A stretch of 64,000 bases of DNA from an uncultured Acidobacteriaceae bacterium (GTDB lineage: Bacteria; Acidobacteriota; Terriglobia; Terriglobales; Acidobacteriaceae): positions 1 through 64,000 of the forward strand of contig CAINJJ010000056.1 of NCBI GenBank assembly GCA_903849645.1. The letters run 5' to 3'. The position numbers were made by a program, and so were the translations under genes. Shown here piece after piece: positions 55,233-60,244 of this stretch; within the stretch, counting starts at the first letter, position 1, and every line of letters begins with the position of its first letter. A model generated the notes under the pieces. The model was not told where the DNA came from. It saw only the letters and a list, made by a program, of their open reading frames with translations, and searched no databases.

Positions 55233-55607
55233 ATGCCCCGCGTAAAACGCAGTACCAAGCGGAATGACCGCCGCAAAAAGATTCTTGAGAGAGCCAGTGG
55301 ATACTTCCTTACCAAGTCCAAGCTCTATCAGGCAGCCCAGGAAGCCGTCGAGCGCGGCCTCAAGTTCGCCTACACCGGCCGCAAGCAGAAGAAGCGCCAG
55401 TTCCGCTCCCTCTGGATTGTCCGCATCTCGGCCGCCTGCAAGCTCAACAACTTCAGCTACTCCCAGCTCATCAACGGCCTCAAGAAGGCCGGCATCGAGC
55501 TCGATCGCAAGATACTCTCCGACATCGCCATCCAGGACGCCGCCGGCTTCACCGCCCTCGTCGAAAAGGCCAAGGCCACCCTCGCCGCCGAAGTCAAGGC
55601 TGCGTAG
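55233..55607 (+). CDS. rplT: 50S ribosomal protein L20
   Basis: 124 aa. [25 protein letters not shown], then [20 protein letters not shown] and [18 protein letters not shown], all typical. A CGGAGAACACC leader precedes the ATG at 55233. L20 also represses its own operon in other bacteria. Confidence 0.97.
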
Positions 55608-56122: not shown

Positions 56123-56413
56123 TTATGGGTGCTTTGCCCTGGAGTCCCCCTTATTTCTTGGCCAGACGTTCAATCCACAGGCAAACCAATGCAGCCCTGA
56201 TTCATCCATTGGCCCGTAGATTCTGCCCTGGATTTCGATTTCATAATGGGGCTCCGAGTCTTCGCCCATCCAGAATTTGGCAGCTCTTCCGCCTTTCCCC
56301 TCAATACTGGCGACCGCATCGAACACATCAATCTGAACCAGAGGGCGACGCTCAGTTGCAGCCCGTGTCCTCAGAATGATTTCGCTGGCGCTCGAAGCAT
56401 GTGGCTGGGTCAT
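56123..56413 (-). CDS. Hypothetical protein
   Basis: 96 aa, unrecognised. Balanced composition with DVFDAVASIEGKGGRAAKFWMGEDSEPHYEIEIQGRIYGPMDE, a likely small alpha/beta domain, ending basic. ATG 56413 with GAGAGACGG upstream. Same strand and order as the DpnI-like gene and the next small gene, so perhaps one transcript. Confidence 0.5.
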   Translation of the reverse strand: MTQPHASSASEIILRTRAATERRPLVQIDVFDAVASIEGKGGRAAKFWMGEDSEPHYEIEIQGRIYGPMDESGLHWFACGLNVWPRNKGDSRAKHP

Positions 56414-56490: not shown

Positions 56491-56769
56491 CTAGTCGCAG
56501 AGGAACTCCCGGTGGGCCTCGAACCCCTTGCTTGGGGCGACTCCCTCCGGCCAGCGGTCCGAGAAAATGAGCTCGATTGTCTCGGTTCCGTCCTGAAAAG
56601 TCCTGCGAACGCGAGTCAGACCAACGAGCAGGTGGCCATCCGGGAAAGTCAGCCGTGAATCTTCCACACCATACATTTGGTCGAGGTAATCAATCGCAAA
56701 GTACAGGTCCTGAACGGAACGAATCCTCAGAGTTTCCTTGTCGACCCTGCATTCCATCTGTTTCCCCAT
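56491..56769 (-). CDS. Hypothetical protein
   Basis: 92 aa, unrecognised. MGKQMECRVDKETLRIRSVQDLYFAIDYLDQMYG..., then TFPDGHLLVGLTRVRRTFQDGTETIELIFSDRWPEG, a plausible small alpha+beta fold. Lies 50 nt downstream of the DpnI-like gene on the same strand. Confidence 0.55.
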   Translation of the reverse strand: MGKQMECRVDKETLRIRSVQDLYFAIDYLDQMYGVEDSRLTFPDGHLLVGLTRVRRTFQDGTETIELIFSDRWPEGVAPSKGFEAHREFLCD

Positions 56770-56819: not shown

Positions 56820-57590
56820 TCAATCGATAACCCGATATTCCCCCCGCCCCTCAAACGCCAGCACGCCCAAATCGCGCAAAATCTGCAACTGCTGCCGAAT
56901 CTTGTCCCGCACATGCCGGTTCCCGGGATAGGCGCGCGCAAACTCAGCCTCCAGCGCATACAGGTCCCGCAGCGCGAATGCCGGCTTTCGCAGCCCGCGA
57001 ACCATCCGCAGCGTCAGCAGCGTCCAGCCGCGTTGGTCGGCGGACTTGCCGGCCAGCGGAAGGAACCGCTGGAACCGCTTTCTCACTTCAGCTACGGGTT
57101 GCGCCACCCCTTGCGCCACAACCGCAATCTCCCCGTCAATCGCAATTCGGTCAAGCCGTATGTTGCAGCCGACCCACCCGGCGCGCCTTGCATTTGGGCC
57201 AAGCGGCGGACGTTCCACGACGACATCAGGCACGAGGAAACTGGAATGGATTGCGGTCAGGGAACGAATCCGCCATTCCTCCGTTCGCTCCAGCAGGCAG
57301 AGGGTTGGGGCAGTTCCCGCTGTAACGCGCTGTATCATGGAGGCGTACGCCCCATCCACAAGCGAGCCATGGGGCCTCCGCTGAAATGTCTTCAGCTCGT
57401 ACCGATGGCTGCACTTGGGACAAACAAAGTCCGTGGCCTTGGTGTTGGCGCTGGTCTGCTTCACGGAGTCGGCGTCGCACGCGAGGCAATAGACATTCCG
57501 CAGGAACCATCCCTCCGACAGCACCCTCGCTTGCTGCGAATGGCTTTGATATTTAGCGGCGAGGCTCAAATCGCAGGTCAGGTTCATCAT
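56820..57590 (-). CDS. DpnI-type methyl-directed restriction endonuclease
   Basis: 256 aa, the length of DpnI (254). Shared features along the whole protein: N-terminal YQSHSQQARVLSEGWFLRNVYC; zinc-site cysteines C35, C38, C57, C60; PD-(D/E)xK-type residues D54 (ATDFVC), E65 and K67 (YELKTF); DGAYASMIQRV; ARRAGWVGCNI; and a C-terminal winged helix ending IRQQLQILRDLGVLAFEGRGEYR. DpnI cuts only GATC with methylated adenine, using both domains. If specificity is kept, this cell cannot tolerate Dam methylation and excludes Dam-modified DNA. No methyltransferase gene adjoins it, as expected. It could also be a Dam-replacing type enzyme. Confidence 0.93.
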   Translation of the reverse strand: MMNLTCDLSLAAKYQSHSQQARVLSEGWFLRNVYCLACDADSVKQTSANTKATDFVCPKCSHRYELKTFQRRPHGSLVDGAYASMIQRVTAGTAPTLCLLERTEEWRIRSLTAIHSSFLVPDVVVERPPLGPNARRAGWVGCNIRLDRIAIDGEIAVVAQGVAQPVAEVRKRFQRFLPLAGKSADQRGWTLLTLRMVRGLRKPAFALRDLYALEAEFARAYPGNRHVRDKIRQQLQILRDLGVLAFEGRGEYRVID

Positions 57591-57616: not shown

Positions 57617-58606
57617 TCACTTCCCTCCCAGAAACCCCTCCACCGCCTTCAGCCACATCTCCGGCTGGTCCACAAAGTTCATGTGCCCCGCATCCGGCAA
57701 AATCACAATCTGCGAGCCGGGAATCTTGTCGTGCATCTCCTTGCTCAGCCAGGGGTCGCTCTCGTCGTGCTGGCCCACCACCATCAGCGTGGGCACCTGA
57801 ATTGACGGCAGCCGGTCCAGGTACTCCACGCTCTTGAGGTTGCCGTCGATGACAAACTCCCCGTGCTCGCCCCACATCACCCGGTAGAGCTCCCAGTTGG
57901 AGGGAGCGTTGCCGGTCGCCGGGTCATAGCTGGAGTCGGGCCGCGCCCCATAGAGAAATGGAAAGTAGCCCGGTCCCCAGGCCAGGTTGCTGTACTCGGC
58001 CGCGTAGCGCCCATGCTCCCACGGCTCGCCCTTGCCAAACAGGCCCGCCTTCTCCAGTTCATTGAGCCGCTTGAGCTTGTCCGGAGCCATCTGCGCCTTT
58101 TCGTGCGCCAGCACCTCGTTCATCTGCCGCGTCGAGGGGAAGGTGCTGTTCAAAATCAGGTGGGCCAGGTTCTGCTGGTACTTGAGCGCATAGGCCTGCG
58201 CCAGCACGCCGCCATAGCTGTGCCCCAGCAGGTCGATTTTGCCCAGGTTGAGGCCCACGCGGACCGCTTCCACATCCTCCACCATGGCCTCGACGGTGTA
58301 GAGGCTCGTGTCCTCGAGCCGCTGCGACCGCCCCGACCCGCGCTCGTCGATAAACACCAGCCGGTGCGTCCGCGCCAGGGGCAGCAGCCACGGCAAAAAG
58401 TAGCTGTGGTCCGCGCCCGGCCCGCCATGCACCACCACCAGCGGCGCGCCCGCGCCCAGCGTCTTGTAGTAGATGAGAACGCCGTGGGCGTCTACAAAGC
58501 CCTCCTGCTGCGTATAGACAGCCGGGGCGGCCTGCGTGGAGGCTTGGGCGGCGGCTAGGGAGGCGAGGGAAGCGGCAACAAGGGCGGCAAAAACCAGTCT
58601 CTTCAT
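57617..58606 (-). CDS. Alpha/beta hydrolase, proline iminopeptidase-like, exported
   Basis: 329 aa. Signal peptide (KRLVFAALVAASLASLAAAQA), then an S33-type hydrolase: HGGPGADHSY, DERGSGRS, nucleophile Ser in LGHSYGGVLAQAYA, Asp in VGQHDESDP and His in DAGHMNF. Cap domain present. Releases N-terminal residues (Pro or others) from peptides, or acts on other small esters. Upstream in-frame ATGs at 58615 and 58645 exist; 58606 gives the best signal peptide. Confidence 0.88.
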   Translation of the reverse strand: MKRLVFAALVAASLASLAAAQASTQAAPAVYTQQEGFVDAHGVLIYYKTLGAGAPLVVVHGGPGADHSYFLPWLLPLARTHRLVFIDERGSGRSQRLEDTSLYTVEAMVEDVEAVRVGLNLGKIDLLGHSYGGVLAQAYALKYQQNLAHLILNSTFPSTRQMNEVLAHEKAQMAPDKLKRLNELEKAGLFGKGEPWEHGRYAAEYSNLAWGPGYFPFLYGARPDSSYDPATGNAPSNWELYRVMWGEHGEFVIDGNLKSVEYLDRLPSIQVPTLMVVGQHDESDPWLSKEMHDKIPGSQIVILPDAGHMNFVDQPEMWLKAVEGFLGGK

Positions 58607-58723
58607 GGGAGTCATGCTACCCCAGACGCCCGGCCAAACGCACACCCTCCGCCCCGCCCGGCTCTGACGCAGGCTCCAGCCTCCGCGCCTGCCCCACGCC
58701 GTGGTTTATCCTGACCTTTACGC

Positions 58724-59830
58724 ATGATGACTGACACGATTCCCAATCTCACGGCATTTGACGAGGCCGCGCTCGACCAGGCCTTTGCCGCTCTGGCCCG
58801 GCAGGCGCAGGACGCCGCCGCGGCGCTCAACGGCGAGGCCGACGCCGAGGCATTTCGCCTGGACTGGCTTGGCCGCAAGCAGGGCCGCCTCAACGACGTC
58901 TCCGGCCGCTGGCTCAAGGCCGCGCCTCCCGAAGCCAAAAAGGCCCTCGGTCTGCGCTTCAACGCCCTCAAGGCTGAGGTCGAGCGCCTGCTGGACGCCG
59001 CTCTCGGCGCGGGCCCAAGCGACGCCGCCCTCGCCGCCGAGGCCATCGACATCACCCTCCCCGGCACCCGCCGCCTCACCGGCGCCGAGCACCCCATCAC
59101 CCGCACCCTCAATGAAATCGTCAGTGTTTTTGCCGCGCTAGGCTACTCCGTCGGCGTGGGTCCCGAGGTGGAGACCGACTACTACAACTTCGAGAGCATG
59201 AACTTCCCGCCCGGCCATCCGGCGCGCGACACCCAGGACACGCTCGTGGTCGCCGCGCAGGACCGCCGCCCCCTCCGCGACCGCCTGCTGCTCCGCACCC
59301 ACACCTCCCCGGTGCAGATGCGCACCATGGAGATGCAGCCGCCCCCCGTCCGCATCGTCATCCCCGGCAAGGTCCACCGCAACGACGCGCAGGACGCCAC
59401 GCACTCGCCGATTTTTCACCAGGTGGAGGGCCTCTGCGTGGACACCAACATCACCTTCAGCGACCTGAAGGGCACGCTGGACCACGCCATGAAGGCGCTC
59501 TTCGGCTCGGCCGTCAAGACGCGCTTCTTTCCGTCGTTCTTCCCCTTCACGGAGCCCTCGGCCGACGTGCAGATAAGCTGCATCTTCTGCGGCGGCAAAG
59601 GCTGCCGCAAGTGCAAAAACTCCGGCTGGATTGAGTTGCTGGGCTGCGGCATGGTTGACCCCGCCGTCTTCGCCTTCGCCGCTGAAAAGCAGCCCGCCTA
59701 CGACCCCAAAAAAATCTCCGGCTTCGCCTTTGGCATGGGCGTGGAACGCATCGCCATGATGAAGTACGGCATCAGCGAGATAGGCAGCTTCTACGCCGGA
59801 GATATGCGGTTTCTGGGACAGTTTGTCTAG
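58724..59830 (+). CDS. pheS: Phenylalanyl-tRNA synthetase alpha subunit
   Basis: 368 aa. N-terminal coiled coil, class II catalytic domain with motif 2 (GKVHRNDAQDATHSPIFHQVEG) and motif 3 (FAFGMGVERIAMMKYGI). The insert CIFCGGKGCRKCKNSGW carries four cysteines like a zinc ribbon. Complete. Normally followed at once by pheT; here a small gene lies between. Confidence 0.96.
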   Translation: MMTDTIPNLTAFDEAALDQAFAALARQAQDAAAALNGEADAEAFRLDWLGRKQGRLNDVSGRWLKAAPPEAKKALGLRFNALKAEVERLLDAALGAGPSDAALAAEAIDITLPGTRRLTGAEHPITRTLNEIVSVFAALGYSVGVGPEVETDYYNFESMNFPPGHPARDTQDTLVVAAQDRRPLRDRLLLRTHTSPVQMRTMEMQPPPVRIVIPGKVHRNDAQDATHSPIFHQVEGLCVDTNITFSDLKGTLDHAMKALFGSAVKTRFFPSFFPFTEPSADVQISCIFCGGKGCRKCKNSGWIELLGCGMVDPAVFAFAAEKQPAYDPKKISGFAFGMGVERIAMMKYGISEIGSFYAGDMRFLGQFV

Positions 59831-59872: not shown

Positions 59873-60244
59873 ATGAGCAGAACTCGGCACTATCGTGATT
59901 TGATTGCCTGGCAAAGGTCCATGGACTTGGCGCGGACGCTGTATGCAGTCACGGAGGAGTTTCCGAAATCCGAGACATTTGGACTGCGCATGCAACTTCG
60001 CCGGGCAGCTGTCAGCGTTGCCAGTCGCATCGCTGAAGGCCACGGCAGACTGACTGACGCCGAAAACCGCAAGGCACTCAGTGCCGCCCGCGGCGCTCTG
60101 AATGAACTTGAAACTCAAATGGAATTGGCCAGCAGCCTGGGCCTCATTCCCTCCAATGCGAACGAGAAACTATTGGACCTGGCTTCTGAGGTCGGAAGAC
60201 TTATCAACGGATTGATCGGCGTGCTTGAGCCGCTGCATGACTGA
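59873..60244 (+). CDS. Four-helix bundle protein (23S rRNA intervening-sequence type)
   Basis: 123 aa. YRDLIAWQRSMDLARTLYAVTEEFPKSE, then LRMQLRRAAVSVASRIAEGHGR and ALSAARGALNELETQMELA, the S23/IVP signature. Family members are encoded in rRNA intervening sequences or scattered as orphans. Here it sits between pheS and pheT inside flanking 17-bp inverted repeats, like an inserted cassette. Function unknown. Confidence 0.88.
   Translation: MSRTRHYRDLIAWQRSMDLARTLYAVTEEFPKSETFGLRMQLRRAAVSVASRIAEGHGRLTDAENRKALSAARGALNELETQMELASSLGLIPSNANEKLLDLASEVGRLINGLIGVLEPLHD

Follow-up and report, generated by a model that had tools for sequence, protein, structure and literature searches.

A DpnI-type methyl-directed restriction endonuclease gene in the variable rplT–pheS slot of an Acidobacteriaceae genome

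R.DpnI of Streptococcus pneumoniae (type IIM; 4esj, 4kyw) binds Gm6ATC with both of its domains and cuts with the N-terminal one, sites methylated on one strand being less well cut (PMC4117772), and it restricts methylated double-stranded DNA (PMC3573125). Pneumococci carry either DpnI or DpnII (PMC3573125), and DpnII has been termed an allelic alternative to DpnI (PMC4081073). In Neisseria, the DpnI homologue Drg (Dam-replacing protein) has GmeATC specificity, is inserted into dam in some strains, truncating it, and has been likened to minimal mobile elements (PMC4269198). Two alternations of this kind are already in print, one between DpnI and DpnII in pneumococcus and one in Neisseria, where drg and dam (including truncated dam) alternate beside leuS.

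Here we describe a DpnI-type gene in the window, that is, the whole stretch of 64,000 nucleotides analysed, which comes from an uncultured Acidobacteriaceae bacterium (Table 1). The predicted protein shares with R.DpnI its domain order, length, active site, Cys4 zinc site and methyl pocket, at about 35% identity; unlike in pneumococcus, the gene downstream is a small open reading frame (ORF), orfA, and not DpnD. As in the case of Drg, the DpnI homologue lies beside a tRNA-synthetase gene, but this gene is pheS here and leuS in Neisseria, the phylum and the slot differ, and no dam remnant was found in the window. By analogy with these systems, we regard the rplT–pheS slot as a further example of the known alternation behaviour of DpnI.

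Table 1 Features of the DpnI-type gene and of the slot that contains it
Feature	Position in window	Strand	Basis
DpnI-type methyl-directed restriction endonuclease, 256 aa	56820..57590	-	ORF, Pfam, PDB sequence search, PADLOC, AlphaFold, Foldseek
PD-(D/E)xK active site D54-x10-E65-x-K67 (DpnI D53, E64, K66)	57390..57431	-	residue comparison
Cys4 zinc site C35, C38, C57, C60	57411..57488	-	residue comparison
GATC/methyl-reading loop R127-G141 with L130, R136, W139	57168..57212	-	counterparts DpnI R126, L129, R135, W138, G140
C-terminal winged helix (DpnI_C) with K230, R232	56832..57038	-	Pfam, residue comparison
rplT (50S L20), left border of slot	55233..55607	+	TIGR01032
pheS, right border of slot	58724..59830	+	TIGR00468
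alpha/beta hydrolase, second slot occupant, pheS side of DpnI	57617..58645	-	Pfam
orfA, 92-aa DpnI companion, 50 bases downstream of DpnI, same strand	56491..56769	-	

The original prediction, made from the DNA letters, was that this protein matches DpnI along its whole length, and profile, sequence and structure searches all agree with it. Both Pfam domains score well above threshold (DpnI, PF06044, E = 3.8e-49, residues 2–178, 167.2 bits against 26.7; DpnI_C, PF17726, E = 5.4e-22, residues 185–253, 78.2 bits against 23), and PADLOC assigns the protein to mREase_II, the type II methyl-directed REases (9.6e-67). When PDB sequences were searched with phmmer (E <= 1), DpnI was the sole match (4esj, 4kyw; 5.5e-56), residues 2–254 of the window protein aligning with residues 4–256 of the DpnI chain, whereas a search of NCBIfam gave no match at E <= 0.001. 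Since homologues begin at residue 2, the true start of the gene is probably the second ATG, at 57587.

The residues expected of a DpnI enzyme are likewise present. The catalytic triad and the four zinc cysteines are exactly where the original prediction had placed them, the cysteines being invariant in our alignment of homologues (A1), and the C-terminal winged helix that it proposed coincides with the DpnI_C domain and keeps both of its basic residues. In DpnI numbering, which is shifted by one relative to the window protein and so fits D53, E64 and K66, the contacts Ser17, Asn48, Asp78, Arg126, Leu129, Arg135, Trp138, Gly140, Lys229 and Arg231 are identical and Gln18 is also retained; this set includes the methyl pocket (Leu129, Arg135 and Trp138, with Gly140). 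The roles of these residues in catalysis, GATC reading, methyl sensing and winged-helix binding are taken from the DpnI structure paper (PMC4117772). One published contact is changed, Asn77 being replaced by Val; Asn77 is a flank contact said to make no contribution to specificity (PMC4117772). An AlphaFold model of the window protein (pLDDT 93.7, pTM 0.89, from 31 aligned sequences) places DpnI first in a Foldseek search of the PDB (4kyw_A, 2.3e-26, TM 0.64; 4esj_B, 7.7e-25, TM 0.88, rmsd 2.0), and as far as sequence and predicted fold go the catalytic residues are in place. Judged by sequence and model, the ORF is a full-length DpnI homologue and not a chance resemblance; by homology it is a further member of the already known DpnI/Dam-replacing family (type IIM) and very likely encodes a defence enzyme that cuts Gm6ATC.

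From these computed features we infer cleavage activity. In particular, the enzyme would cut double-stranded DNA at Gm6ATC and spare unmethylated GATC, with the PD-(D/E)xK domain and its Cys4 zinc site reading and cutting, and the winged helix reading a second site. No partner methylase would be needed, absence of GATC methylation marking self, and phage or plasmid DNA that comes in from Dam-type hosts would be destroyed. The further suggestion that the enzyme blocks uptake of Dam-methylated DNA and so shapes gene exchange needs narrowing. Natural transformation brings in single strands. Since DpnI restricts double strands, entry of phage and of double-stranded plasmids should be affected, and natural transformation should largely escape.

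A different reading is that the window protein recognizes Gm6ATC but no longer cuts, acting as a methylation sensor or regulator. Such a role is conceivable within the family, as Gln replaces the catalytic Glu64 in 24 of 93 aligned DpnI homologues (the alignment being without L064 and L065, which gave no match) while most of the DNA-reading residues are kept. The window protein, however, has Glu at this position and retains D54, E65 and K67 together with the DNA contacts listed above; QxK sites are, moreover, catalytic in Mrr-type nucleases, and the Gln form may still cut. We therefore consider a pure sensor highly improbable here and continue to read the gene as encoding a nuclease. The Gln64 forms (for example L103, L104, L111, L155 and L158) belong mostly to one clade, whose members come from Acidobacteriota, Chloroflexota, Planctomycetota and Verrucomicrobiota.

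A working DpnI and a working GATC-methylating enzyme should be incompatible within a single cell, and for this reason the gene would be expected to alternate with GATC-type restriction–modification systems. The genome of the host, whose kin support its original description as Acidobacteriota-like, contains a single DpnI copy (4.54 Mb in 56 contigs, given as 100% complete) and gave no match to the D12 (Dam-class) methylase profile PF02086, a profile that, as a control, matched in 4 of 14 named genomes, among them E. coli; PF05869 methylases were likewise not found in the 4.54 Mb. Three PF01555 methylases are present, none belonging with Dam and DpnM in the D12 class: two adjoin REases, one SmaI-like and one XhoI-like, and the third (L004) is similar to type II methylases of plasmids, among them one annotated HindIII. 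With no D12-class methylase found in the host, its GATC sites are likely unmethylated, which fits the earlier proposal that the enzyme excludes Dam methylation from the host. In a post hoc comparison uncorrected for kinship, made on the window and on stretches of the other genomes and left out of our verdict, the ratio of observed to expected GATC was 0.81 (the window's genome, G000), 0.63 (G486) and 0.77 (G445) in DpnI carriers, 0.60 in a congener with a broken DpnI (G457, measured on 12 kb) and 0.75 to 0.97 in 10 congeners in which DpnI gave no match, which is suggestive of GATC tending to be rarer in carriers.

We surveyed the region between rplT and pheS in congeners. The slot region upstream of pheS could be taken from 64 of the 79 other congeners, as 66 stretches (of the remaining 15 congeners, 5 had no pheS match and 10 had partial or edge matches). 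The tally covers the 53 stretches in which both rplT and pheS were placed; it excludes 6 stretches cut off by a contig end, of which three contain the hydrolase, and 7 in which rplT was out of reach, and two stretches (L090, L067) were replaced in it by others of the same genomes (L232, L233). The gap is below 450 bases in 27 of the 53 stretches, whereas 13 contain the alpha/beta hydrolase, 2 contain DpnI (whole in G486, broken in G457), and 11 contain neither hydrolase nor DpnI, with gaps of 600 to 3,735 bases. Among six of the larger inserts that we inspected (in G452, G516, G496, G382, G518 and G511), G452 and G516 each have an AbiL-like pair, which in G516 adjoins the hydrolase; G496 has a Vsr gene together with genes for a C5 methylase and an Eco29kI-type REase; G382 has a DUF1761 protein; and in G511 nothing apart from the hydrolase was assigned. 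Thus rplT–pheS is a variable slot in which congeners can carry other defence genes. In G518 the slot is occupied by a single gene (L177, 6042–7811, minus strand) whose 589-aa product matches nothing in Pfam or PADLOC at E <= 0.001 and is a candidate new defence protein.

Carriage of DpnI is sparse: within the genus 5 of 80 genomes have it, and within a phylum sample 11 of 396, the window's own being included in both counts and three of the 11 having short or broken frames. A 53% homologue is carried, away from the slot, by the cultured Terracidiphilus gabretensis S55. The position between rplT and pheS is shared by the gene of the window, by those of congeners G486 and G457, and by those of three further Acidobacteriota records (L096, L098 and L100). 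Two small ORFs accompany it on the rplT side in the window. For orfA, homologues follow DpnI at a distance of about 55 to 310 bases in L096 (41%), L098 (31%, E = 4e-4) and L100 (44%); a search of G486 found none, and Pfam (E <= 1), PADLOC and NCBIfam (both E <= 0.001) gave no match. The other, orfB (56123–56413), was discarded as a system component, having no match (E <= 0.01) in 94 DpnI loci, as was the ORF at 59873–60244, which encodes a four-helix-bundle family protein and adjoins pheS also where DpnI is absent.

The opposite state of the slot is seen in a single congener, Acidobacteriaceae bacterium fen_408 (G457; record PLOI01000010.1, a metagenome bin given as 87% complete), so that one locus holds DpnI in the window and in G486 and, in this one case, a restriction–modification operon. 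The DpnI frame of fen_408 is 84% identical to the window protein up to residue 141 (tblastn); by eye, the last shared residue is A137, directly before G138-W139 of the window protein, and the ORF ends at 156 aa, the gene thus being interrupted just ahead of the methyl-sensing tryptophan. Just two Ns occur in this stretch, about 150 bases upstream of the DpnI start, and the break itself is free of them. Downstream on the same strand follow a 150-aa ORF, two methylase genes (M1 and M2), a gene for a 344-aa putative nuclease, a 117-aa ORF and then rplT; the operon of two D12 methylases and putative nuclease appears intact (L075, 6911–10950). M1 matches TIGR00571 (dam; 9.6e-77, 258.2 bits against a cut-off of 114.85), has both DPPY and the C-terminal tail motif, and finds DpnM as its best PDB sequence (5.9e-62).

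Where DpnI alternates with DpnII in pneumococcus, the alternative in the congener is an operon of two D12 methylases and a putative nuclease, and its methylases are homologous to those of AlwI systems; AlwI itself has a fused pair of methylases with GGATC and GATCC as targets (PMC4081073). M1 and M2 align with residues 1–238 (51%) and 366–707 (47%) of a fused methylase of Priestia, which is followed by an AlwI REase gene (PF09491, 2.5e-99); the same order of fused methylase and AlwI-family REase was found on Geobacillus and Acinetobacter plasmids, and so on all three plasmids examined. Stand-alone relatives of M2 adjoin DpnII-family REases on three of the four plasmids examined (Sphingomonas, Rhizobium and Paracoccus), the fourth (Rhodococcus) adjoining a hypothetical protein. 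Unlike in AlwI systems, however, the two methylases of fen_408 are encoded separately, and the putative nuclease lies outside the AlwI family: it matches DUF7226, with AAA_assoc_C below cut-off and nothing else, and has no PDB relative by sequence. M1 and M2 probably make Gm6ATC. The main alternative, by analogy with MhoVII, is GATG/CATC, which is methylated by that fused-methylase system related to AlwI's (PMC12898733), although the first methylase half of the MhoVII-type system is classed as YhdJ and not as Dam (PMC12898733).

Taken together, these observations lead us to favor, with considerable confidence, the view that the window gene encodes a type IIM enzyme cutting Gm6ATC that sits in a variable slot and alternates with GATC-type restriction–modification systems. 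How it came to be in the slot is less clear-cut. The five slot DpnI proteins in our tree fall within one 11-row Acidobacteriaceae clade (support 100/99), and synonymous divergence of DpnI is similar to that of the neighboring synthetase genes in two cases (G457: dS 1.60 over 141 codons, against 1.88 for pheS and 1.67 for pheT; L100: pS 0.73 against 0.75), as would suit a gene native to the slot in this family and lost many times, with no horizontal exchange. On the other hand, DpnI exceeds both pheS and pheT in synonymous divergence, uncorrected for codon bias, in G486, L096 and L098; the slot position is established for five of the 11 clade rows, the other six being L060, L061, L062, L097, L099 and L101; and G445 carries its DpnI at another place in the genome, the slot being empty. 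(The tree leaves out L102, L075, L073, L063, L074 and L076, as duplicates or fragments, and L114, as short.) We therefore hold purely native descent to be possible but somewhat doubtful. Phages and plasmids were each considered as a source of DpnI and set aside: 50,697 phage records contained one partial match (30% of the protein), and 2 of 72,556 plasmid records matched, both of them 2.17-Mb records of Neisseria gonorrhoeae.

Methylase genes were also sought around DpnI in a wider set of loci. The locus set comprised the best 80 of at least 534 DpnI matches, from many phyla, and because these were ranked by likeness to the window protein, the proportions below are not population estimates. 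With probes that came from DpnI loci, 30 of these best 80 of at least 534 showed a GATC-type methylase match no more than 2.5 kb from DpnI (four of the 30 being probe sources), and none was found beyond that distance in 628,018 bases of the same set. When outside D12 probes were used, from the Psychrobacter DpnII system and the Priestia AlwI system, a GATC-type methylase gene or stub was found within 2.5 kb in 16 of the best 80 of at least 534. The D12 frame is cut short and lacks the C-terminal tail motif (by a self-made pattern, E[LI][LI][IV].NY, which the Psychrobacter enzyme meets) in 15 of these 16, leaving stubs from about 20 residues upwards, L129 being frameshifted. Six of the frames (L117, L123, L125, L127, L136 and L170) match the 299-aa Psychrobacter enzyme to residues 283–287 and then continue with different sequence; that losing the last dozen residues kills these methylases is an assumption. 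DpnI is open in 14 of the 15 loci with a cut-short methylase (a stop is present in L165), and the sixteenth locus found in this screen of the best 80 of at least 534 is that of fen_408, with M1 whole and DpnI broken. An M1 stub and a nuclease C-terminus, remnants of a fen_408-type operon, flank DpnI in L056 (G307); M1 without its end and a nuclease N-terminus surround it in L158 (Methylacidiphilum); and a nuclease C-terminus lies beside it in L058 (G084).

These remnants bear on the explanation that DpnI is ordinary defence cargo and that methylase pieces near it merely reflect clustering in defence islands. Unrelated defence systems do occupy the slot, and in the window slot itself no methylase remnant was found (best probe E 0.077). 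Clustering of this sort, however, sits poorly with matches confined to 2.5 kb of DpnI in the best 80 of at least 534 loci, with breakage of the methylase in 15 of 16 cases and of DpnI in the other, and with remnants of one operon framing DpnI in L056 and L158; we regard it as unlikely and retain alternation as the preferred reading. A related pattern is seen in L125 and L127, in which DpnI is near-identical (dS 0.02) and dpnM has diverged (dS 1.3). The two have an almost identical DpnI–DpnD stretch (DpnD in L127 being PF14207), and identity shifts in a step close to where dpnM ends, which is what the entry of a single cassette into two operons would lead one to expect. In Bacteroidota-type loci, the DpnM-like genes that precede DpnI have a low dN/dS, 0.045 to 0.087 (13 of 15 pairs computable), which we at first took to mean living methylases; the contrast between DpnI and dpnM in L125 and L127 undercuts this, since the constraint may predate the insertion, and the shortened genes may still be living methylases.

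One set of loci is not what strict exclusion of methylases by DpnI would predict. DpnA-like methylases that look intact, having both the DPPY and SAM motifs (self-made patterns), adjoin DpnI in 11 of the best 80 of at least 534 loci (L117, L119, L123, L129, L130, L136, L149, L155, L163, L172 and L174, two of which are probe sources), and DpnI is open in 10 of the 11 found in this screen, with a stop in one. Such enzymes would be suicidal beside DpnI if double-stranded GATC were their substrate. Coexistence has precedent, however, in that pneumococcal DpnA methylates single strands (PMC3573125) and that three gonococcal strains have a DpnIIB-like gene after drg (PMC4269198). Class-wide exclusion of D12 methylases was also considered and rejected: D12 matches occur in 177 of the 396 phylum-sample genomes and in 5 of the 11 that are DpnI-positive (strong in G009, G307 and G159, weak in G049 and G280). 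As D12 covers many targets, this co-occurrence neither supports nor refutes exclusion of GATC methylation.

The 15 broken methylases of 16, together with fen_408, resemble the DpnI/DpnII and drg/dam alternations and raise the possibility, to which we give an even chance, that DpnI cassettes are polarity switches in many phyla, inserting into GATC-methylating operons and truncating the methylase, with the reverse, as in fen_408, also occurring. DpnII-type operons would be the targets in Bacteroidota and AlwI-like ones in Acidobacteriota and Verrucomicrobiota, and the host would turn from 'methylated self' to 'unmethylated self'. The open-access literature matches listed for acidobacteria with DpnI, restriction–modification or Gm6ATC included no acidobacterial report, and none of the matches listed was seen to deal with the slot in Acidobacteriaceae, with its AlwI-like alternative or with breakage across phyla. 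Hosts with opposite self/non-self codes on GATC would each cut DNA from the other kind, and the window genome and fen_408 would form a natural pair within the Acidobacteriaceae, with opposite predicted codes in one chromosomal slot. Should the wider pattern hold, breakage of GATC methylase operons would have been one of the ways in which DpnI spread, and the evolution of methyl-directed restriction would become testable with methylomes; in practice, DNA intended for such hosts should, we infer, come from dam-minus E. coli. By eye, a similar stretch of about 30 codons in frame lies directly upstream of DpnI in L116, L120, L123, L125, L127, L130 and L165, joining it to methylase stubs cut at varied points, and is perhaps a repeat or recombination element.
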